Virus record (IMG/VR): IMGVR_UViG_3300036853_000374
Location: 1 to 21,679 of that record
DNA length: 21,679 nt
DNA from: a virus
Direction: 5' to 3' (one strand)
This document shows, piece by piece, positions 6,271 to 21,679 of the stretch (positions within the stretch are counted from its first letter, which is position 1; each line of letters starts with the position of its first letter). The notes under the pieces are model-generated. The model did not search any database and was not told the origin of the DNA. It saw only the letters and a program-made list of their open reading frames with translations. Both the position numbers and the translations under genes were made by a program.

Positions 6271-6449
6271 GGGGCCACCTGCAGGTACGCGACCGTCGAT
6301 CGATCGACGTAGACGTCGCCCGGCATCTTCACCGGCGCCTGGCCCGCTTTCAGCGCGGACGCGTCCTTGAGGATCAGCCACCGCGGCCGAGAGGCCACCA
6401 GCACGCCCTCGATCGCCTCCGATTCGGTGTGCGTGAAATTCACGAGCAC
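6267..6449 (-). CDS. Small hypothetical protein between terminase and portal
   Basis: About 60 residues from a GTG at 6449, reading VLVNFTHTESEAIEGVLVAS at the start and ending DVYVDRSTVAYLQVAP. The stop overlaps the portal start (GTGA). The pattern of short beta strands (VNFTHTESEAIEGVL, RPRWLILKDA, VYVDRSTVAYLQV) resembles the very small beta-barrel proteins often found just upstream of portal genes in HK97-like phages, but I cannot assign a family. The start is uncertain because the frame continues upstream to 6887 and no clear ribosome site is visible. 6450-6559, upstream of it, holds no other convincing gene. Confidence 0.5.
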   Translation of the reverse strand: MLVNFTHTESEAIEGVLVASRPRWLILKDASALKAGQAPVKMPGDVYVDRSTVAYLQVAP

Positions 6450-6559
6450 CCGGTGCGAGAGACACGGCGGCCGCCAGAACAAGAGCCAGCGCACACAGGT
6501 TGCCCACAATCCAGATCGAGTGTGGGGCGTCGGGCGTGGGGCCCGTGATTTGTCGATGT

Positions 6560-6748
6560 TTATTCGGCGCGCCGGGTGAGCTCGCGCCGGATGATCTCGG
6601 GGATCGTGACGTCCTTGCCTTCCGTGCGCGTGAGCCGCTGCGCCCGCCGCGCGTACGCGTCGTATTGCTTCAGCGGGAGCGTGACGCCGACTTCGATCGA
6701 GGTGTCGTCGTCGTCGACGCGGGGCCGGCCGGGATGGGTCCGCTTCAT
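6560..6748 (-). CDS. Ribbon-helix-helix-like small DNA-binding protein
   Basis: A 62-residue basic protein starting at the ATG at 6748, which overlaps the upstream stop (ATGA). After an acidic N-terminus (VDDDDTS) it has a beta strand SIEVGVTLPL, then a helix KQYDAYARRAQRLTRTEG, then a second helix VTIPEIIRRELTRR. That is the strand-helix-helix order of CopG/Arc-type ribbon-helix-helix repressors, including the '(I/V)PEIIRREL' ending. Such proteins act as dimers that insert the paired strands in the major groove. Placed inside the packaging genes, it could autoregulate late transcription or serve a packaging role. The fold call is by pattern only. Confidence 0.55.
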   Translation of the reverse strand: MKRTHPGRPRVDDDDTSIEVGVTLPLKQYDAYARRAQRLTRTEGKDVTIPEIIRRELTRRAE

Positions 6749-6933
6749 CGCTCCCGGGTCCGGAAGATCGGCAACCCGGCGGCGTCCTGTTCGCCGGCGA
6801 ACGTATACGTGGCCTCCCCAAAGCCGCCGTGCGCATAGTCGACGTATGGCATCCGGATCGACAGCCGATCGTCGTCGGGCAGGTCAATGACCTTGGTCCA
6901 GCCGGTCCGGTCGTTGATCACGCGGACCTTCAT
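6745..6933 (-). CDS. Small hypothetical protein after large terminase
   Basis: A 62-residue protein (starts MKVRVINDRTGWTKVIDLPD) whose ATG at 6933 overlaps the large terminase stop and whose own stop overlaps the next ATG. Both junctions are ATGA. It looks like an all-beta small protein: two N-terminal strands, a turn at LPDDDR, then RLSIRMPYVDYAHG and FGEATYTFAGEQ. I do not recognise it. The tight coupling to terminase and a ribbon-helix-helix gene makes it a real gene rather than a shadow. The longer frame reaching 7617 is antisense-like Arg-rich sequence over terminase. Confidence 0.6.
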   Translation of the reverse strand: MKVRVINDRTGWTKVIDLPDDDRLSIRMPYVDYAHGGFGEATYTFAGEQDAAGLPIFRTRER

Positions 6934-8681
6934 CCGACCACCAGATAGGGGTCCTCGGGGGGGCCGACGTCCATCGCCGCGAGCTTCCGCGTCATGATCA
7001 TTGCGACGATGCCGTCGATCCGGCCGGTGCTCCGCTTCTTCACCGGTTTGATGTTGTCGGGCCCGTCGCGGTACACGACGACGTTCGACGCCTGCACCGC
7101 CAGCAGGGGGTTGCCGCCGGCGTCGACGAGCCCGTCGAGCACCTCCGCCTCGAAATCCTTCGAGGGGAGCGTCATGTGTTTGATCGTTTGCGGGATCTCG
7201 AGGACCTCGAACCCGTCCATCTCGAGGTCGTTCTCGATCGTGCCGGCGTTCCACGGGTCGAAGCCCACACGGAGGATGGTGAGCCCGAACAGAGTCTTCG
7301 CGTCCTTCACGGCCTGCCGGATCACCGCCTGGTCGATCCGGTTGCCCGGGTTCGTCGTCAAGTACGGCCACGGCGTGCCCGGAATGAGGTCCGTCGTCCA
7401 CTGCTGATAGGGGGCCCGGTCGCGCCGGGCCCGCGCGAGGAGCGTGTCCGCCGGCGTGAAGCACCGCACGACGTACCGCCAGGCGGTCCGGGTGGCCGTC
7501 GGCGGGAACAGGAACGCGAGCGCGGACAGATCGATCTTGCTCGAGAGGTCCACGGCAGCGAAGCAGGGCTGTCCGCGCAGCTCCTCGAGCGTCCAGGGAC
7601 TCTGCCCCCGCTTCCACCCGTCGATGGACAACCAGGGCGCGTCGGTGTTGACCCAGAGATTCAGGCGCTTCTGCTGGTACGCTGCGGCCGCGCTCGGCAT
7701 CGCCAGGGCTTTCGTGACGAGCGCCGCCAGATCGTCTGGCTTGATCGACACGCCGTAGTTCGGATTCGCCTTCCGCGCGGTCGCGTCGAGCGTCCAGTCG
7801 TCCTCGGGATCCGCGTGCGCGATGAAGGCGAAGAACGTCTCGTCGACGAGGACCTGGTCGAGCAGCTGGCAGGCGTAGAAGTGTTGATCGCCACAGGGCG
7901 AGACGGGGTCGTTGCCCGCCGTCGTGATCTGGAAGTTCAGCGGCTGCCGGCGGGCGCCGGTGGCCGTCTCCATCACGTCGATCGTGTCGCGGTGCTTAAT
8001 CTTGTGGAACTCGTCGACGATGATCAGGTTCGGGTTCAGCCCGTCTTCCGGATCTTTCCCGAGCGGTTCGAGCTTCGAGGATGTGTCGACGCGGTGGAGG
8101 TTCTTCGCCCGGACGGTGATGCGCGCCTTCAGGCCGCTCGACCGGACGAGCTTTTTCATGTCGTTGAAGACGAACATCGCCTGCCCGCGCTTCGTGGCCA
8201 GGCAGTAGCCTTCCGCGCCGGGCTCGCCGTCGTAGAACGTGACGTAGAGCCCGACGATCGCCGCCTCGAGCGACTTGCCGTTCTTGCGGGGAATTTCGTG
8301 GTACGCCGTGCGGAACCGCCGCAGGCCCGTGTCGACGTGGACCCAGCCAAAGATCGAGCCGAGCCGAAACTGCTGAAAGGGCTGGAGGACGATGAACGAG
8401 CCGGCCCATTCGCCCTTGTAGTGTTTGAGCTTGCTGGCAAACCGGAAGAACCGATCGGCCTTGGCCGCGTCGAAGCGGTACGGAAACGCCGCGGTCCCTT
8501 CGCGTTGGCGATCGCGCAGGTGGCGTTCACAACTGAGGCGGTGATACTTCCCCGCCGGGATCGCCCCGGCGACGACGCGGCGCGCGTAGGCGTCGACCGG
8601 ATGGACGAGGCCGAGCACCGTGCCCACGGCGAGCGCGACGCGGACCACGGCCGCCTTAATGGGCTTGGGTAGTCGGCTCAT
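6930..8681 (-). CDS. terL: Terminase large subunit (ATPase and nuclease)
   Basis: A 583-residue Terminase_1-type large subunit. The ATG at 8681 (MSRLPKP) has GGAG four bases upstream and lies inside the end of the small terminase gene. The ATPase half shows a Walker A-type PRKNGKS at about residues 131-137 and a Walker B LIIVDEF at about 219-225. Coupling-motif sequence (NFQITTAGND) follows. The nuclease half begins near CFAAVDLSSKIDLSALAFL, whose first Asp fits the RNase H-like metal site, with VGFDPWNAG and a late GRIDGIVAMIMT as further acidic positions. The protein packages DNA into the prohead through the portal and makes the terminal cut. Length and gene order are normal. A TTG at 8693 in the same frame is a less likely start. 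Confidence 0.95.
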   Translation of the reverse strand: MSRLPKPIKAAVVRVALAVGTVLGLVHPVDAYARRVVAGAIPAGKYHRLSCERHLRDRQREGTAAFPYRFDAAKADRFFRFASKLKHYKGEWAGSFIVLQPFQQFRLGSIFGWVHVDTGLRRFRTAYHEIPRKNGKSLEAAIVGLYVTFYDGEPGAEGYCLATKRGQAMFVFNDMKKLVRSSGLKARITVRAKNLHRVDTSSKLEPLGKDPEDGLNPNLIIVDEFHKIKHRDTIDVMETATGARRQPLNFQITTAGNDPVSPCGDQHFYACQLLDQVLVDETFFAFIAHADPEDDWTLDATARKANPNYGVSIKPDDLAALVTKALAMPSAAAAYQQKRLNLWVNTDAPWLSIDGWKRGQSPWTLEELRGQPCFAAVDLSSKIDLSALAFLFPPTATRTAWRYVVRCFTPADTLLARARRDRAPYQQWTTDLIPGTPWPYLTTNPGNRIDQAVIRQAVKDAKTLFGLTILRVGFDPWNAGTIENDLEMDGFEVLEIPQTIKHMTLPSKDFEAEVLDGLVDAGGNPLLAVQASNVVVYRDGPDNIKPVKKRSTGRIDGIVAMIMTRKLAAMDVGPPEDPYLVVG

Positions 8682-9228
8682 CAAACTCCGCAAACGGATC
8701 CTCGGGCGCCGGCGCGTCGGCGACCTTGACGCGGGATCGAGCCGCCGGCGTCATCCCGAGCTCGACCAGGTACTGGCGCACGGCCATGTGCCCCTGGCGG
8801 AGCTGGGTCGTCGACTTCACCTCGAGTTTCTTGAGCTGGACGATCGACTCGATGGCCCGCACGATCTGCTCGCCGTCTTTGAGCTTGTTGATCGCGGCCT
8901 GCAGCTTCTCGACGAGCGCGACATTCGTGCGATGCGCCACGCTGATCGCTTCGGTCTCGGCGAACAAGCAGCAGTACTGATAGAGCACGGCGTCGTCGAC
9001 GGTCGACAACGTCTTCGCGTCGTCGAGGCGCGCGACCATGCGGTGCCATTCCGCCAGCGCGGGGCCGATCAAGCCGATCGGCGTCGGGGGTTGGCCCTTG
9101 GGTACATCCGGCGTGTCGGCCGACGTCGAGGTCTTCGCGGTCCCGCGATCTTTCCGGCCTGTGCCGGCGAGCGCGTGTGCGCGCTGCGATTTCCTGTTCC
9201 GGCCGCCTGAACTCGAAGTACCTGGCAC
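8656..9228 (-). CDS. terS: Terminase small subunit, P27 family
   Basis: A 190-residue protein from a GTG at 9228 with AGGAG eight bases upstream. After a basic Ser/Thr-rich N-terminus it has the P27-family layout: PPTPIGLIGPALAEWHRMV, then LSTVDDAVLYQYCCLFAETE, a middle helix that binds its neighbours, and a C-terminal acidic tail (APEDPFAEFDEP) expected to contact the large subunit. It would recognise the packaging site and recruit large terminase. It overlaps the large terminase start by 26 bp. The adjacent HNH endonuclease gene is the common partner of P27-type terminases in cos phages. Confidence 0.88.
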   Translation of the reverse strand: MPGTSSSGGRNRKSQRAHALAGTGRKDRGTAKTSTSADTPDVPKGQPPTPIGLIGPALAEWHRMVARLDDAKTLSTVDDAVLYQYCCLFAETEAISVAHRTNVALVEKLQAAINKLKDGEQIVRAIESIVQLKKLEVKSTTQLRQGHMAVRQYLVELGMTPAARSRVKVADAPAPEDPFAEFDEPTTQAH

Positions 9229-9398
9229 TCAAAACGCTCCTAAAATGCGAAATTCATTTGCTGACAGCGCGCGAGGGAACCCTGGAGCGGTTTCCCGGGC
9301 CGCCCAGTCTGGAGAGATTTCGATCCCCCCCCCGCCCGTTGCAGGTCAACGACTTGCGACCGCATCGCGCCGTGTGTGTGGATGTCAAGGACAATCGG
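9229..9398 (-). other. Intergenic spacer with C-run, possible cos region
   Basis: This 170-bp stretch separates the HNH gene from small terminase and holds no convincing gene. It has a nine-C run at 9325-9333 followed by GCCCG, and a more AT-rich piece at about 9240-9260. In cos phages with HNH-TerS-TerL modules, the cohesive-end site usually lies in exactly this interval, so cos is a position-based inference. The ribosome site for small terminase (AGGAG) is at the left end of the spacer. Confidence 0.3.
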
Positions 9399-9737
9399 CT
9401 ATCCCTTGGTCACGTTGCAGCTGCGACAGAGCGACTGGTGATTGCGCGGGTCCATCACCGCCCCACCACGCGCGATCGACACGATGTGATCGACGACCTG
9501 CGCGCGCGTCTTCAGCCCACGTTGGACGCAGCGACTGTGCTCGCGATGGGCGAGGCCATCACCGCGTTGGCCACACCACGGGTACTTGATCAACCAGCTG
9601 CGGGCATACGTGGCCCACTGACTGGTGTAGCCCCGGGCTTGCGCGCTGGGCCTCGGATGATCGGGACACTCGCTGCCGGCTAGCACCAGGCGGGCGCACT
9701 TGGGATGTGTACAGGGACGCGCGGGTGCGAGCGCCAT
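9399..9737 (-). CDS. HNH endonuclease beside terminase
   Basis: A 112-residue HNH nuclease. The ATG at 9737 (MALAPARPC) overlaps the upstream stop (ATGA). The N-terminus has Cys/His pairs (CTHPKC, residues 9-14, and CPDH, 24-27) that may bind zinc. The catalytic region is VVDHIVSIARGG (D83, H84), DPRNHQSLCRSCN (N99, C104, C107) and K111. That is the ordinary HNH spacing with the CxxC that holds the zinc. The last His of the motif is replaced by Asn (CNVTK), a common variant. HNH proteins next to terminase help cut cos DNA during packaging in HK97-like phages. The long frame to 10313 is not protein-like upstream of 9737. Confidence 0.88.
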   Translation of the reverse strand: MALAPARPCTHPKCARLVLAGSECPDHPRPSAQARGYTSQWATYARSWLIKYPWCGQRGDGLAHREHSRCVQRGLKTRAQVVDHIVSIARGGAVMDPRNHQSLCRSCNVTKG

Positions 9738-10015
9738 CAGGCCTTCACCTTGGGCACCCGCTTGGTGGTCAACGTCAACAGCGTCAGCTCCACCACCATC
9801 AAGGCCGGGATGAAGCACACCCCGCGATAGGTGTGCTCGTCGGAGTGTTCGGTGGCTAAGGTCAACCCGGTTTCGTCTTGCCGGAGGAGAAAGCCGTACG
9901 TCGTGTAGTGGGCGGATCGATGGGGTAATTCGTGTTCGGCGTACTCGGTCACTGATCCCGCGGAATGGGCATCCGCCCAGCGGACTGCACAGAAGGTCTT
10001 GTCTAAGAGCTTCAT
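9737..10015 (-). CDS. Small hypothetical phage protein upstream of HNH gene
   Basis: About 92 residues from the ATG at 10015 (MKLLDKTFCAVRWADAHSAG). I do not recognise it by name. The pattern of an N-terminal VRW(A)D strand, a central H/TTYGFLLRQDETGLTLATE, and a late YRGVCFIPALMVVELTLL resembles short phage proteins with a 'T.GWL....d..vvla.....yR....IPkg.Iv..' layout, usually found near replication or packaging genes. The same frame continues upstream to a TTG at 10195. I prefer 10015 because the upstream part is Pro/Arg-rich, but it includes a hydrophobic piece (RMVLFFLWFM) that could belong. The stop overlaps the HNH start (ATGA). Confidence 0.55.
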   Translation of the reverse strand: MKLLDKTFCAVRWADAHSAGSVTEYAEHELPHRSAHYTTYGFLLRQDETGLTLATEHSDEHTYRGVCFIPALMVVELTLLTLTTKRVPKVKA

Positions 10016-10131
10016 GAACCAAAGGAAGAAGAGGACCATGCGCGCGACGCGGACGATCGGCAGCGTCCATCGCCTCCCGTACCGCAGAGGCTGGACGGGG
10101 GTGGTCCGGAGATCGTGGGAGACGACGCCAT
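10012..10131 (-). CDS. Doubtful 39-residue ORF upstream of the 10015 gene
   Basis: An ATG at 10131 follows a good ribosome site (GGGGGAG, six bases before). The 39-codon frame ends in an ATGA overlap with the gene starting at 10015, which is this operon's usual coupling style. The product is Ser/Pro-rich and unlike any family I know. The alternative reading is that the ribosome site serves an N-terminally extended version of the downstream gene in the other frame. Confidence 0.2.
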   Translation of the reverse strand: MASSPTISGPPPSSLCGTGGDGRCRSSASRAWSSSSFGS

Positions 10132-10294
10132 GCGGCACTCCCCCTTCTGGGTTGTGGGTCTGAGGGTTCCAGCCTGGATCGGAACCGGTGGGCAACAGTG
10201 GGCCACGGCGTGCCTGACCCTACGGACGCGTGGCTAATCGTGATCCGGCCGGGCCGAACGGGGCGAGAATCAGAGGACCATACGCAAACGCACC
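10132..10294. promoter_or_regulatory. Divergent control region between late and Ku operons
   Basis: Leftward genes (HNH, terminase, head) and the rightward Ku operon diverge from this interval, so promoters for one or both should be here. I see no strong sigma-70 boxes and no clear terminator. GAGGA at 10273-10277 is a ribosome-site-like motif 17 bases before the ATG at 10295, too far for normal use with that start. The call rests on gene orientation. Confidence 0.35.
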
Positions 10295-10519
10295 ATGCTG
10301 CCGGCCGATCCACTCCTGCCGTTGCCGGGCCATCTGCTCGAGGTGTCCCATGTGGCCTACCGGTTGAGTTTGAGTGAGGACTACGTGCGGCGGTTGATTC
10401 GGGCTAAGAAGATCCCCGTCATTCGGTTGGGGGCCCGGTACCGGATCGACCCGCTGGACTTGCAGGCCTTCATCGAGGCGCAACGCGTCAACGGGAACGG
10501 AAACGGGAAGGACGCGTGA
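10295..10519 (+). CDS. Helix-turn-helix (excisionase/MerR-like) protein
   Basis: A 74-residue protein of the excisionase-type helix-turn-helix group. HLLEVSHVAYRLSLSEDYVR (from about residue 13) is the HTH with the usual SxxYVRRLI recognition helix. It is followed by the wing and final strand, KKIPVIRLGARYRIDPLDLQ, and a short polar tail (NGNGNGKDA). This layout (HTH-KIPAxRxGxRYRxxxxDLxxFI) is typical of small phage and plasmid DNA-binding proteins. It is the first gene of the Ku operon, so it may regulate that operon or the divergent late genes. It is far from the integrase, so an excision role is less likely. The next gene's GTG overlaps its stop (GTGA). Confidence 0.75.
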   Translation: MLPADPLLPLPGHLLEVSHVAYRLSLSEDYVRRLIRAKKIPVIRLGARYRIDPLDLQAFIEAQRVNGNGNGKDA

Positions 10520-10752
10520 GCGAGCCCGACGCCCTCGAACTCGAACTCCGGTACGAATGGTGGCTGAATCACGGGCGGCACTGTCGGCCGTACGGCGACG
10601 ACGGCGAGATGCAGTGCTGTGCGCTGGACTTCAAGCGGATGCCACTCGACGAGCTGCGCGAGCGGGTCCACGACCTCCGGCTGCAGCGCATCAAGGAAGC
10701 ACTGGCGCGCGAAGTAGACGTGCCGTTGCCCTGGCCGGAGGCCTTCGTTTGA
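10516..10752 (+). CDS. Hypothetical protein encoded directly upstream of Ku
   Basis: A 78-residue protein from a GTG at 10516 with GGAAGGA close upstream. It overlaps the preceding stop (GTGA), and its TGA shares one base with the Ku ATG (TGATG). The N-terminal part has HCRPYGDDGEMQCCALDF with three Cys and one His that could hold a metal. The C-terminal part is one long amphipathic helix (LDELRERVHDLRLQRIKEAL). I do not recognise a family. Its invariable coupling to Ku here suggests either a partner of Ku or simply cotranscription. Confidence 0.6.
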   Translation: MSEPDALELELRYEWWLNHGRHCRPYGDDGEMQCCALDFKRMPLDELRERVHDLRLQRIKEALAREVDVPLPWPEAFV

Positions 10753-11624
10753 TGGCGAGCCCCCGCGCGATCTGGAAAGGCACCCTCCAACTCTCTCTGG
10801 TCCAGGTCCCGATCAAGATGTATGCGGCCACTGAAGCCAGCGCGACGATCAGCTTCCATCAAATCCACGACGCGCCCTGCCAGGCCCGCGTGACGCAGAA
10901 GAAGTGGTGTGCGAGCTGCGAACGCGACGTCCTCAGCGATGAGATCGTGAAGGGGTATGAAGTCGCCCCGGGCCAGTACGTCCTCGTCAACGCCGACGAA
11001 CTGGACGCGGTGGCCCCCGACTCGACGCGCGTGATTGCCCTGACGCAGTTCGCGCCGGCCGCATCGTTGCCGTGGCGGGCGATCGACCGGGCCTACTTCC
11101 TGGTGCCCGATGGGCCCGACGGCGGACCCGCCCAAGATGCGTACGCCGTGCTCGTGGACGCGATCGCGGGATCCGTGGGCATCGGCACGCTGGCGATCTA
11201 CGGGCGGGAGTATTTAGTGGCGGTGGCCTCAGGGGATCGCTGCTTGAGTCTATATACCCTGCATCACGCGGCCGAATGGCGATCGGCGCCGTATGGGGCG
11301 GATCGGCGGGCGTTGGTGTCGGCGGCGTTGCGGGGCGCGACGGTCGCCGCGAAATTGGTGGTCGAGGCCTGGACCCAACCCTTGCGCCTGGACGATTTCA
11401 CCGATACGTATCAAGCGGACTTACGCCGCTTGATCGACGCGAAGATCGCGGGGCAGGAGATCGTGCAGCCGGCCGTGGTCGAAACAGGTCGACCGTTGCC
11501 CATCTTGGAGGCGTTGACGCAGAGTCTTGCGTTGGTCGCCGGAAAGAAACCACAGGTCAAAGCCCGGCGCCGCTCGAGCACCGCCCTGCCCGCGGCCCCC
11601 GCGTCCCGAAAGAAGGCGGGGTGA
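10752..11624 (+). CDS. ku: Bacterial-type Ku protein (NHEJ end-binding), phage-encoded
   Basis: A 290-residue Ku homologue of full bacterial length. The opening RAIWKGTLQLSLVQVPIKMY matches the Ku core start (RAIWKGxIxFGLVxVPVxLY). It is followed by SFHQIHDAPC, a KKWCASCERDV element (C53, C56) and EIVKGYEVAPGQYVLVNADE, which corresponds to the family's 'DIVKGYExxxGxYVxLxxEEL'. Then come DRAYFLVPDG and LYTLHHAAEW, at the positions where other Ku proteins have the beta-barrel and arch. The short basic C-terminal tail (KKPQVKARRRSSTALPAAP) fits the DNA-retention extension of bacterial Ku. Ku homodimers thread onto double-strand DNA ends and recruit LigD. No ligase lies in this window, so the protein would need the host's. 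Mycobacteriophages Omega and Corndog also encode Ku. Confidence 0.93.
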   Translation: MASPRAIWKGTLQLSLVQVPIKMYAATEASATISFHQIHDAPCQARVTQKKWCASCERDVLSDEIVKGYEVAPGQYVLVNADELDAVAPDSTRVIALTQFAPAASLPWRAIDRAYFLVPDGPDGGPAQDAYAVLVDAIAGSVGIGTLAIYGREYLVAVASGDRCLSLYTLHHAAEWRSAPYGADRRALVSAALRGATVAAKLVVEAWTQPLRLDDFTDTYQADLRRLIDAKIAGQEIVQPAVVETGRPLPILEALTQSLALVAGKKPQVKARRRSSTALPAAPASRKKAG

Positions 11625-11821
11625 CGGCCTGCATGCGCTGCTTCACCGATGCGGACTTGCGGCGCGGCCTGGCGGCGGTGATCGCCCGGTGGGATGCGTG
11701 TGTCGTGTGCGGCGGCCGAAACGACGACTGGCACGAGCTCGAGACGCATCCCTTTCAGCCGCCCGATCTCCTGACCCTGCTGCTCGAGGCGACGCAGGCG
11801 CAGCCGACCGTCCTGCAGTGA
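11621..11821 (+). CDS. Small Cys-rich protein, possible zinc ribbon
   Basis: A 66-residue protein starting at a GTG at 11621 that overlaps the Ku stop (GTGA). It has two CxxC pairs (CMRC, residues 4-7, and CVVC, 27-30) separated by a helix (LRRGLAAVIARWDA), which is a simple zinc-ribbon-like layout. The rest is hydrophobic helix (PPDLLTLLLEATQA). I do not recognise it. It is in tight operon with Ku and with the next gene (GTGA overlap). Confidence 0.5.
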   Translation: MTACMRCFTDADLRRGLAAVIARWDACVVCGGRNDDWHELETHPFQPPDLLTLLLEATQAQPTVLQ

Positions 11822-11988
11822 AATTGCGCATGGCCAAAGCCCAGCTCCGGATCGTGCCGACGCCCGTGGAGCCCTGGACGCACCCCCTCCGCTTTCCGTT
11901 CCGGACGCGCTGGCGCTTGTGGACGATCCGGGAGCGGGCGACGTGGAAGGCGTGGTGGCACGATCTGATCTATCTGGTGAAGGGGTGA
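11818..11988 (+). CDS. Small basic Trp-rich protein
   Basis: 56 residues from a GTG at 11818 (overlaps the previous stop, GTGA), or 52 from an ATG at 11830. The C-terminal half is Trp- and Arg-rich (FRTRWRLWTIRERATWKAWW), ending in DLIYLVKG. This could be an amphipathic membrane-associating or nucleic-acid-binding peptide. The family is unknown. The stop overlaps the next GTG, keeping the operon continuous. Confidence 0.45.
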   Translation: MKLRMAKAQLRIVPTPVEPWTHPLRFPFRTRWRLWTIRERATWKAWWHDLIYLVKG

Positions 11989-12215
11989 GCGCCTCAGAGT
12001 GTTTAGCGGCGATCTCCCGGGCCTATCAGCAACTGCAGGCGTTACCCGGGGACGAGGGCCAGCGCATCCGCAACGGGGATCCCGCGTATCTGCGGCTCGA
12101 AGCGGAGATCCGATCGTTGGCCGAGCAATACAAAACGCTCACGCGCGTAAGCCCCTTGGAAGCCCCTTCTCAGGTCCTTCAGGGCGCCACCGAAATCTCG
12201 GTCACGACGCGCTGA
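11985..12215 (+). CDS. Small helical hypothetical protein ending the Ku operon
   Basis: 76 residues from a GTG at 11985 (GTGA overlap with the previous gene), starting SASECLAAISRAYQQLQALP after the initiator. It looks mostly alpha-helical with an acidic middle (YLRLEAEIRSLAEQYKTL). The function is unknown. The 3' end overlaps the end of the convergent leftward gene by 37 bp, so the two operons collide with no terminator space between them. Confidence 0.5.
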   Translation: MSASECLAAISRAYQQLQALPGDEGQRIRNGDPAYLRLEAEIRSLAEQYKTLTRVSPLEAPSQVLQGATEISVTTR

Positions 12216-12385
12216 CAGACCGCGCACGTCACGACGAGCACCCCGCGCGCCTTCACGTAGGTCACAATCGTCGCCATGCCCAAGTGACATCGCGCGGCGA
12301 GGACGAGTTCGCAACTGTCGTGGGAGCAGCCCGGCACGGCGCACCGTTGGGCGTCGAGTTCGTGCTGGGTCAGGGGCAGCGCCAC
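12179..12385 (-). CDS. Small Cys/His-rich protein, likely zinc-binding
   Basis: A 68-residue protein from a GTG at 12385 (shares a base with the preceding TAG). It contains CAVPGCSHDSC, then CHLGMATIVTYVKARGVLVV, then CAVC and a final VVTEISVA strand. The order 'CH.G..T.V.Y....G.L...CA.C.R.V..I' is one I associate with small phage zinc-ribbon-like proteins. It is the last gene of the long leftward early operon and overlaps the end of the rightward Ku operon. Confidence 0.6.
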   Translation of the reverse strand: MALPLTQHELDAQRCAVPGCSHDSCELVLAARCHLGMATIVTYVKARGVLVVTCAVCQRVVTEISVAP

Positions 12386-12579
12386 TACGTCACGCCCTTC
12401 GGCCGCTTCTCGACCTCCAGCCGTTCGATCCCGCGCAGCACGTACGGCTGGCCGGTGAGCGTTTCCATCGGCTGGTCGACCGCGATCTGATGGGCTCGCA
12501 GGAAGCGTTCCCGGATGTCGTAGAGCGTCGAGCCATCAGGCACCTCGAAGATCACGGTGGACAGGACGGCGACTTTCAT
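12385..12579 (-). CDS. Small hypothetical protein
   Basis: A 64-residue protein from the ATG at 12579, which overlaps the preceding stop (ATGA). A GTG two codons upstream also exists. It begins with a strand (KVAVLSTVIFEVPDG), followed by a helix (LYDIRERFLRAH) and an acidic/basic end (IERLEVEKRPKG). I do not recognise it. It is part of the coupled early operon. Confidence 0.5.
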   Translation of the reverse strand: MKVAVLSTVIFEVPDGSTLYDIRERFLRAHQIAVDQPMETLTGQPYVLRGIERLEVEKRPKGVT

Positions 12580-12845
12580 TGACACCCCGCTCCCGGCGGG
12601 AGCTGCGCTTTCGAGATCGCCGCGATGGTGAGGTTGGGCGTCCCGCCGTAGTTACTCGCCAGATAGAGACACACCCCGTTCGTATCGAACACGCGGAGGC
12701 GGATCAACTCCGGCCCCGCGACCGGAATCTCCCACTGCTGGGTGCCCTTCTCCGCTTTCTGGGCCGTGAGCGCGCGCATCGCCGCGGAGAAGCCCATGCC
12801 GACCGCGATGCCGAGCACCGCACCCGTGACGTAGGTGAGCTTCAT
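12576..12845 (-). CDS. Small membrane-anchored or secreted protein
   Basis: 89 residues from the ATG at 12845 (ATGA overlap with the upstream stop). The first 26 residues (KLTYVTGAVLGIAVGMGFSA) form an N-terminal hydrophobic segment that could be a signal anchor. A soluble beta-like part with two Cys (VCLYLASNYGGTP and the terminal GAGCQ) follows, possibly outside the membrane. The family is unknown. A superinfection-exclusion type role would fit a prophage accessory gene, but nothing in the sequence shows it. Confidence 0.5.
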   Translation of the reverse strand: MKLTYVTGAVLGIAVGMGFSAAMRALTAQKAEKGTQQWEIPVAGPELIRLRVFDTNGVCLYLASNYGGTPNLTIAAISKAQLPPGAGCQ

Positions 12846-20061: not shown

Positions 20062-21165
20062 ATGGGATCCGCTCGCTACCCGCGCGGGCTGACGAAAGGC
20101 GCGAAGGGCTGGCGGATCAGCCTCCGCGTCCACGGCGCGCTCTATCAACAGCGCTTCCCGTCGAGCACGCCGCAAGCCGACGTCGAAGCCGAACTGACCA
20201 CTGCGCGCGCGCGCCAACGCGCCGGGCATCGGGCGACGCAGGCCGGATCGCTCGCGGCGGACGTGGCCCGCTATCTCGTCGACTACTTCGCCGGCCGACC
20301 GGGCCACGCGGAACGCACGCGCCATCTGCAGCTCTGGGTGGACGCGCTCGGCCCCGACACCACGCGATCCACGGTGTCCCGCGACGATCTCGCGCGGGTG
20401 CTGAATAGCTGGCGCGCCGGCGGGCTCGCGGCGGACACGTGCAACAAACGGCGGACGGCCCTCCTCGCGCTCTATCACGCGCTCGACGGGAAGGGCGGAT
20501 CGAATCCGGTCCGCGAGATCCCGAAGTTCCGGCCGCCCGAGGCGCTGCCGCGCGGCGTGCCCTACGCGCAGATCGAACAGACGCTCGCGCTGCTCCCCGC
20601 GTGCAAGACCGAAGCGCGGCTGCGCGTGATGGCGTACACGGGCCTCCGGCAGTCCCAGATCATGCGGCTCACGCCGGCGGCCTGGGATCCCCGGCGCCGG
20701 CTGTTGATGGTGCCCGGCACGGACAAAGGGCGCGGCACGAAACCCTACACGCTCCCGCTCGGGCGGTCAGCGACGGCGGCGCTCGCCACCTTCGACGCGC
20801 GCGAGGCGTGGGGCCGGTTCACCTGGGCCCCGATGGCGCGCATGTGGCGGGAGGCGTGGCTCGCGATGCGCACGGGCGACGATCGGCTCGCCATCCGCGC
20901 GCACCCGGCGGCGTACGCCCACATCGAGACGCCAGTCCCGTACGACATCCGCCACTCGTTCGGCACGCAGCTCTATCGCAAGACCGGGGATCTCAAGGCC
21001 GTCAAAGAGCTGCTCGGCCACGCGTCGATCCGGATGACCGAGCGCTACACGCTCGCCGCGGTGTCGGAACAGAAGCACAAAGCGATGCAGGCGTTTGAGG
21101 CGAGCGTGGGGCGAAAGTTGCCCCCGCGAGTTGCCCCCCCCGGCAAACTCCGAACGAAAGCGTGA
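20062..21165 (+). CDS. int: Tyrosine-recombinase integrase
   Basis: A 367-residue phage integrase. The N-terminal 60 residues (GWRISLRVHGALYQQRFPSS) look like an AP2-like arm-binding domain. Residues 62-155 are the SAM-like core-binding domain. The catalytic domain has R196 (YTGLRQSQIMRL), K222 (GTDKGRG), R297 in PYDIRHSFGTQL (the usual first His is Tyr294), H320 (LLGHASIRM) and the nucleophile Y329 (TERYTLA). It inserts the phage at the tRNA-derived att core a few dozen bases downstream. The last 20 codons contain two arm-type repeats, so coding and att sequence overlap. Confidence 0.95.
   Translation: MGSARYPRGLTKGAKGWRISLRVHGALYQQRFPSSTPQADVEAELTTARARQRAGHRATQAGSLAADVARYLVDYFAGRPGHAERTRHLQLWVDALGPDTTRSTVSRDDLARVLNSWRAGGLAADTCNKRRTALLALYHALDGKGGSNPVREIPKFRPPEALPRGVPYAQIEQTLALLPACKTEARLRVMAYTGLRQSQIMRLTPAAWDPRRRLLMVPGTDKGRGTKPYTLPLGRSATAALATFDAREAWGRFTWAPMARMWREAWLAMRTGDDRLAIRAHPAAYAHIETPVPYDIRHSFGTQLYRKTGDLKAVKELLGHASIRMTERYTLAAVSEQKHKAMQAFEASVGRKLPPRVAPPGKLRTKA
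21108..21138 (+). repeat. Left arm-type repeats (candidate integrase sites)
   Basis: AGTTGCC occurs at 21116-21122 and 21129-21135 within a unit beginning GGGGCGAAAGTTGCC (21108-21122). The unit recurs on the other side of the att core. It lies inside the 3' end of the integrase gene. Confidence 0.65.
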
Positions 21166-21193
21166 GACGTTGTTTCCCTTTCAAGGCCAAAAC

Positions 21194-21221
21194 ACGGGTT
21201 CGAATCCCGTTGGGGACGCCA
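21194..21221 (+). other. tRNA 3'-end fragment, att core
   Basis: This reads as the T arm and 3' acceptor strand of a tRNA: stem ACGGG/CCCGT around TTCGAAT (21194-21210), acceptor strand TGGGGAC, discriminator G and encoded CCA (21219-21221). The matching 5' half (GTCCCCA about 70 bases upstream) is absent because the integrase gene lies there. It is therefore an att core from a tRNA gene, not a functional tRNA. Confidence 0.85.
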
Positions 21222-21284
21222 GTCTTTCCGGCCTAAACCCGCAGACGTGGACGGATCCAACCACGCCGCAACACGCCACAACGA

Positions 21285-21314
21285 GGGGCGAAAGTTGCCA
21301 CTGAAGTTGCCCCC
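21285..21314 (+). repeat. Right arm-type repeats (candidate integrase sites)
   Basis: GGGGCGAAAGTTGCC (21285-21299) is identical to the left arm unit, and a second AGTTGCCCCC follows at 21305-21314. The core lies between the two arms. Confidence 0.65.
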
Positions 21315-21349
21315 GCACGGCCGCGTCCGCACCCGCCGATACGCTGACC

Positions 21350-21679
21350 GTGACGCCCAGAACAATCGGTCTCGCCTCGCTCGCGATCGGCGGCGTGCTC
21401 CTGGCCTGGACCTGTGCCCCGCCGACCCATCCCGACACGACGCCGCCGGCCCCGCCGGCAGCCCCGGCCACGGCGATCGCGCTGACGGTCGACACGGCCA
21501 CGAGCAATCACGAGAGCCTGTTGAACATCCGCGTCACCTCCGCCACCGGCGCCGGCGTGCCCGATCAGATCGTCACGTTGACCACCTCGTCGGGCACGGT
21601 GAATCATCCGACCCTCGCGACCGGGATCCAAGGGACCGCGCAAGCGATGCTGACCACCGAGGCGGATGCGACCGTCACC
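21350..21679 (+). CDS. Secreted Ig-like domain protein, C-terminus off the right edge
   Basis: The frame from a GTG at 21350 stays open to the window edge (110 residues). An N-terminal hydrophobic stretch (IGLASLAIGGVLLAWTCAPP) looks like a signal peptide, with a Cys that is not in a classic lipobox. A Pro/Thr/Ala linker follows, then a bacterial Ig-like (Big_1/invasin-type) domain: IALTVDTATSNHESLLNIRV, GVPDQIVTLTTSSGTV, GTAQAMLTTEADATVT. If the att site is attP this is a phage gene near the tail end. If the window crosses an integration junction it is host DNA. Confidence 0.6.
   Translation, partial: MTPRTIGLASLAIGGVLLAWTCAPPTHPDTTPPAPPAAPATAIALTVDTATSNHESLLNIRVTSATGAGVPDQIVTLTTSSGTVNHPTLATGIQGTAQAMLTTEADATVT

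Follow-up and report, generated by a model that had tools for sequence, protein, structure and literature searches.

A phage-encoded Ku beside a predicted cos site in phages probably infecting Vicinamibacteria

What use would a phage have for a Ku gene placed next to its packaging genes? Circularization by NHEJ with host LigD has been proposed for mycobacteriophages that combine Ku with cos ends (PMC4351075, PMC3706429, PMC7719229). Here we consider a viral sequence of 21,679 nucleotides (IMG/VR record IMGVR_UViG_3300036853_000374, positions 1 to 21,679; hereafter the window). Our preferred reading, held tentatively and at slightly short of an even chance, is that it belongs to a temperate Vicinamibacteria-type phage with an HK97-type packaging module, whose once-captured Ku lies by a predicted cos site and would aid circularization through a host ligase.

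Ku in an overlapping operon

Ku is the third of six plus-strand genes in the window:

10295..10519, plus strand: HTH_17 (excisionase/MerR-like) DNA-binding protein, 74 aa (PF12728, 6e-10; phrog_66, 2.2e-7)
10516..10752, plus strand: 78-aa protein with H-x3-C-x10-CC, the slot gene between HTH and Ku
10752..11624, plus strand: Ku protein, 290 aa (PF02735, 1.2e-32; phrog_4873, 1.1e-34; PDB Ku chains, 3.6e-25)
11621..11821, plus strand: 66-aa protein, GTG start, two CxxC pairs
11818..11988, plus strand: 56-aa protein (p56), GTG start, conserved C-terminus W.DL.YLV.G
11985..12215, plus strand: 76-aa protein (p76), GTG start

All neighbors overlap by 4 bp or 1 bp, the 78-aa gene by 4 bp with the HTH gene and by 1 bp with Ku, in agreement with the tightly overlapping six-gene operon described in the initial annotation. 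Its call of a full-length phage Ku was likewise borne out: the protein matches PF02735 at 113.8 bits (cut-off 25) over profile positions 2-175 of 190, the matched PHROG family is annotated as "Ku-like DNA end binding," and residues 5-283 align end to end with solved bacterial Ku chains. Judged by its sequence, the protein is unambiguously a bacterial-type Ku (PF02735); an AlphaFold model from an 8-sequence alignment (pLDDT 42) is too poor for judging the ring.

In comparison with the related contig L002, most changes within Ku codons are at the third position (36/20/82; dN 0.09, dS 0.50, dN/dS about 0.18), as are those in the 56-aa (0/0/3) and 76-aa (1/1/10) genes, and this bias argues that all three are coding. 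The 66-aa gene shares 95% identity with that of L002, with changes (3/2/4) too few for a coding call, and its relatives are only L002 and, weakly, L065 (1e-11). A promoter scan of window positions 9700-12700 found nothing exceeding chance.

The small genes had also been suggested to be dedicated partners of Ku, and this suggestion did not hold up. The Cys-containing 78-aa protein directly upstream is present as described, with no family match in Pfam or PHROG and no clear homolog among the relatives; its short H..C..C motif recurs in the L004 and L009 slot genes. Relatives of p56 occur in the Ku-bearing contigs L002, L003, L010, L065, L066, and L068 and also in the Ku-less L079, L080, L083, and L094, all of which carry the HTH gene, while p76 occurs in Ku-bearing L002, L003 (a longer form), L010, and L068 and in Ku-less L080 and L083. 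The HTH gene is retained upstream of Ku in most relatives, which argues that the operon is not a chance grouping; rather, Ku came to occupy a slot in a general operon.

Several variants of this operon were observed. Slot genes with the common motif W..H...C........CDCGLQ (L004:5372-5572, L009:9482-9742, L079:6220-6564) sit between HTH and Ku (or the 56-aa gene), and in L009 a truncated second HTH behind a Tat-like signal start (L009:9834-10004), apparently a duplication remnant, lies directly upstream of Ku. Cold-shock-like short proteins are encoded in the operon downstream of Ku in two contigs (L003:12169-12420, L008:11487-11900). Small NrdR-type zinc-ribbon proteins without the ATP cone occur near Ku or X128 (a family described below) in many relatives (L002:8576-8809, L003:12867-13103, L004 about 6405-6626, L005, L145, L147, L150), that of L003 matching PF22811 (3.7e-18).

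The packaging module and the predicted cos site

Upstream of the operon, HNH, TerS, and TerL lie on the minus strand, so that the Ku operon diverges from them, as first described:

6930..8693, minus strand: terminase large subunit TerL (PF03354, 7.1e-33; PF20441, 5.7e-34; phrog_9, 2.9e-140)
8656..9228, minus strand: terminase small subunit TerS, Terminase_4 (PF05119, 9.9e-12; phrog_83, 7.4e-16)
9249..9334, minus strand: predicted cos site, starting with a G-run, GGGGGGGGGATCGAAATCTCT...GCCCGGGAAACCGC... (nhmmer, 8.8e-18; the window itself contributed to the model)
9399..9740, minus strand: HNH endonuclease of the packaging module (PF01844, 1.4e-7; phrog_144, 1.1e-15)
9737..10195, minus strand: 152-aa protein between HNH and the Ku operon, no family match (80% identity across 105 aa with its L002 counterpart)

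As in an HK97-type module, HNH, TerS, and TerL are adjacent and the predicted cos element occupies the HNH-TerS gap. Most relatives have a conserved element of ~87 bp downstream of HNH on the TerS side, consisting of a G-run, ATCGAAATCTCT, and then often GCCGGGAAACCG. The element model, built from 11 phages, also matched contigs outside the training set, including L007 (2e-12), L069 (6e-9), L151 (1e-6), and L002 (1e-5), with further matches in L076, L008, L005, L073, and others at the equivalent place; the matches were always near HNH on its TerS side. Weak matches (0.09 to 0.8) were obtained in L003, L071, L155, and L072, and none in shuffled sequence. The HK97 record has the same order of HNH, G-run, genome end, and TerS, and the best match of the model in the joined HK97 ends is at the G-run, though weak (E 0.01).

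Among about 40 contigs considered, one relative, G208 (43,912 bp), has both ends inside the element. Its left end lies 36 bp before a methyltransferase-like gene that is followed by TerS and TerL, and its right end 47 bp past HNH; in sequence, the two ends correspond to the tail (left) and the front (right) of the L065 element. Such ends would be expected if the contig came from linear virion DNA that terminates at cos. About 9 bases seem to be absent relative to the L065 element, which would agree with an overhang of around ten, the HK97 case, and not with the four bases of Corndog. From these data we infer that the HNH-TerS element is a predicted cos site, which is in line with the link between Ku and genome ends suggested in the initial annotation: in the window the site lies ~1.4 kb from the Ku start. 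The gene between the predicted cos end and TerS in G208 (L177:37-1278) is ParB/N-methyltransferase-like.

In 14 of 17 contigs the distance between the element and the Ku start is 1.0-2.5 kb, with two of these values (L003, L072) resting on weak element matches in the expected place. In the other three the distance is 4.1, 5.4, and 9.8 kb, the largest in the basal member L073, and in L071 Ku is on the TerS side. Terminase type changes eight times on the Ku tree; PF03237 matched in only one of the 17 records that lack PF03354. The window and L002 share 84% identity in Ku and 29% in TerL, the window and L009 71% in TerL and 45% in Ku. These comparisons indicate that the packaging module is repeatedly exchanged while Ku remains beside the element, an adjacency that may be inheritance in one lineage.

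Positions 20062-21311 of the window hold an integrase (PF00589) and, after it, a partial tRNA gene consisting of the 3' portion (about 21183-21221, ending in GGGTTCGAATCCCGTTGGGGACGCCA), presumably tRNA-Glu, flanked by similar short sequences, GGGCGAAAGTTGCC, near 21109 and 21285. The region is probably attP, and the contig would therefore be the free phage form. Past it, a plus-strand frame (21348-21679) for an Ig-like or fiber-type protein is cut by the contig end.

Origin of the phage Ku and Ku-less operons

Scans of viral contigs gave 25 with a related Ku, some of them fragments or near-identical, and the clade is diverse, with at least 20 distinct contigs. A tree of 55 Kus groups the phage sequences in a single clade (support 100/100) inside the Acidobacteriota chromosomal Ku family, and in a tree with more phages all 19 usable phage Kus again form one clade (97/97). 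The clade is nested in the Vicinamibacteria (Acidobacteriota) family, and neither mycobacteriophage Ku nor the LigD-linked Ku that these hosts also have groups with it. Identity between the window Ku and Vicinamibacteria chromosomal Ku is 41-48%, and a basic C-terminal tail, KRKRA, is common to the host Kus and most phage Kus. In three host loci (L012, L037, L014) the source-family Ku does not adjoin LigD and lies downstream of a gene that we take, from its sequence, to be thymidine-kinase-like; four host genomes have a second Ku that adjoins a ligase (LigD). Ku was most likely captured once, by an ancestor of the phage group, from a host chromosomal Ku.

A profile made from the phage Kus matches 139 of 193 genomes of this class, which together with the nesting of the clade suggests that the host is probably a member of the Vicinamibacteria, soil Acidobacteria; nothing in the window itself identifies the host. 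No integrated copy of the phage Ku clade was recognized among the best 30 Ku loci listed from the 193 genomes, the best of which are of host type, only part of these genomes' Ku loci being placed in the tree.

Contigs that have this operon but lack Ku came up through relatives of the HTH gene. In L080, L083, and L094 HTH is followed by X128 and the 56-aa gene (with the 76-aa gene also in L080 and L083), in L081 by X128, and in L079, which has neither Ku nor X128, by a slot gene and the 56-aa gene. The operon is thus older than its Ku. X128 is an undescribed family of ~128 aa, unrelated to Ku, at the Ku position of the operon. Sequence searches of Pfam, PHROG, and the PDB gave no substantial match for it, and none was found among 50,697 phage records. 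Its model (pLDDT 82.6) has a long helix followed by beta-beta-alpha-alpha-beta; fold matches in the PDB (Z up to 3.2) cover the long helix only and are not convincing, and those to viral proteins are weak and to proteins of unknown function. A relation to Gam was considered and not found in sequence and fold searches, and an assignment to DUF6993 was rejected, the match (6.6e-5) being below the cut-off of that family. In L093 an RNA ligase gene (6306-6965; phrog_14301, 1.3e-43) stands in this same position of the operon, directly after HTH and upstream of X128.

Ku is absent from all 20 X128 records and from the L079 record, and X128 was not found in the 22 Ku records or in that of L079, by a search without a positive control, although another search did detect the family in its own loci. 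On the terminase tree the X128 label changes at least four times with little clustering (the rows scored as having neither, L096 and L099, are contigs ending just after HTH). Given these changes and the lack of co-occurrence, Ku and X128 appear to have replaced one another repeatedly. A further step, that the operon beside cos is an exchangeable site for genome-end handling and X128 a new DNA-end-binding or joining family serving as an alternative to Ku, we regard as rather unlikely at present.

Possible roles of Ku and known systems

Under the preferred reading, the linear genome would enter HNH end first, an order of injection taken from lambda, and by analogy the HTH-Ku operon would be among the first DNA to arrive, with Ku made at once. 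Ku would then thread onto the two cohesive ends, shield them from host nucleases, and hold them together until the circle is sealed by a ligase of the host, either LigD or NAD-dependent LigA. The identity of Ku, its operon, the single phage clade within the host family, the lack of a ligase in the phage records, and the adjacency to a conserved element are observed; the cos nature of that element, the order of injection, end binding during infection, and the choice of ligase are the parts that we infer. The reading draws on the placement of the Ku clade within the host family, on the conserved element with its HK97-like G-run and the G208 ends, on the position of Ku beside the HNH-TerS element in 14 of 17 contigs despite terminase changes, on the basic C-terminal tail, on the distribution of ligases, and on the mycobacteriophage precedent. 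The ATP-dependent ligase family PF01068 is present in all eight host genomes and in none of ten viral records (the window and nine relatives), in which neither LigD nor another ATP-dependent ligase accompanies Ku; this absence is weak for several viral records because they are fragments, the window being a partial genome, and weightier in records of 53.6, 33.9, and 31.8 kb. A passage in PMC4351075, citing Pitcher et al. (2006), provides the precedent and gives the 4-base overhang of Corndog as the rationale for Ku, while PMC1378119 contains nothing on phage circularization.

HK97-type overhangs are of 10 or 12 bases (PMC9410871), and our main doubt is that an overhang of about 10 would anneal without Ku, so that nuclease protection may be the selected function. 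Ku could accordingly be an anti-nuclease cap only, protecting incoming or replicating ends from host enzymes of the AddAB/RecBCD type much as Gam of Mu or lambda does, with joining left to ordinary annealing and LigA, and with X128 as another protein meeting the same need. PF12705, a family that includes AddB-type enzymes, has members in all eight host genomes, and the unrelated Ku and X128 share an operon position without occurring together (0/20, 0/22, L079); however, RecC was not found in these eight genomes, X128 has neither a known function nor a convincing fold match, and protection by Ku is itself a prediction. We consider this explanation unlikely. Joining by Ku is further weakened by its distance of 4-10 kb from the element in three contigs and its location on the TerS side in L071, and relatives with the same operon and no Ku show that it is dispensable.

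More doubtful is a role in which Ku, with host LigD, repairs double-strand breaks made by restriction or CRISPR or promotes recombination between phages, its place near the packaging end being a general site for accessory genes. The operon is indeed variable, holding Ku, X128, the RNA ligase of L093, or cold-shock-like and NrdR zinc-ribbon genes, and Ku phages are over-represented among recently recombined phages (PMC8136500), but such a role does not predict that Ku is kept beside the HNH-TerS element through terminase exchange. It is very unlikely that phage Ku instead disrupts host Ku through mixed non-functional dimers, blocking host NHEJ or an end-sensing defense: a protein derived from the host family could form such dimers and the phage encodes no ligase, yet the purifying selection seen along the entire protein, like the conserved basic tail, suggests that Ku activity is retained. 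Purifying selection, together with the age and diversity of a clade of at least 20 distinct contigs, also makes it highly improbable that Ku is a host gene acquired by chance with no selected role, although many relatives are without it.

What is new here is an independent capture of Ku by phages of another phylum, its place beside the predicted packaging site, and its exchange partner X128. In a search of 50,697 phage records at 1e-5, only 81 matched Ku, 80 Mycobacterium phages and one unclassified fecal contig, and a published list adds the Streptomyces phage BillNye (PMC11936186). With Ku found in few groups of the isolated phages searched, NHEJ-aided circularization had rested on few hosts; the present group offers a second, independent case of Ku use, for which the earlier examples are all phages of mycobacteria and other actinobacteria. 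A second capture, kept beside an HK97-type site through terminase exchange, suggests that help at genome ends is selected more widely, including where overhangs are not very short, and X128, as the exchange partner of Ku, becomes a named candidate, open to testing, for a new protein that handles genome ends.

By analogy, the window Ku may work like that of mycobacteriophages. Omega (cluster J) and Corndog (cluster O) encode Ku in a cos phage, as proposed for the window with its predicted cos, and cluster O phages also have HNH upstream of terminase. Mycobacteriophage Ku is nevertheless a distant clade (26-33% identity) to which the window Ku does not belong, the cluster J protein has a different, Lsr2-like C-terminus (PMC3706429), in Firecracker and Courthouse, unlike the window, the 3 kb on either side of Ku contain no annotated terminase or HNH gene, and the Corndog overhang is of 4 bases where the G208 ends would fit near 10. 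The chromosomal Ku of Vicinamibacteria, the direct source family, has the basic tail in common with the window Ku; it lacks HTH or packaging genes nearby, and in the loci read it is not LigD-adjacent. Mu Gam may have an end-protecting, Ku-like role in common, whereas our searches reported no sequence relation to it and the window Ku is of the bacterial PF02735 type. HK97 has the same order of HNH, cos, TerS, and TerL, with a G-run and then ATCAAATCT before the genome end; its annotated right end has no Ku, whereas in the window an accessory operon with Ku adjoins HNH.
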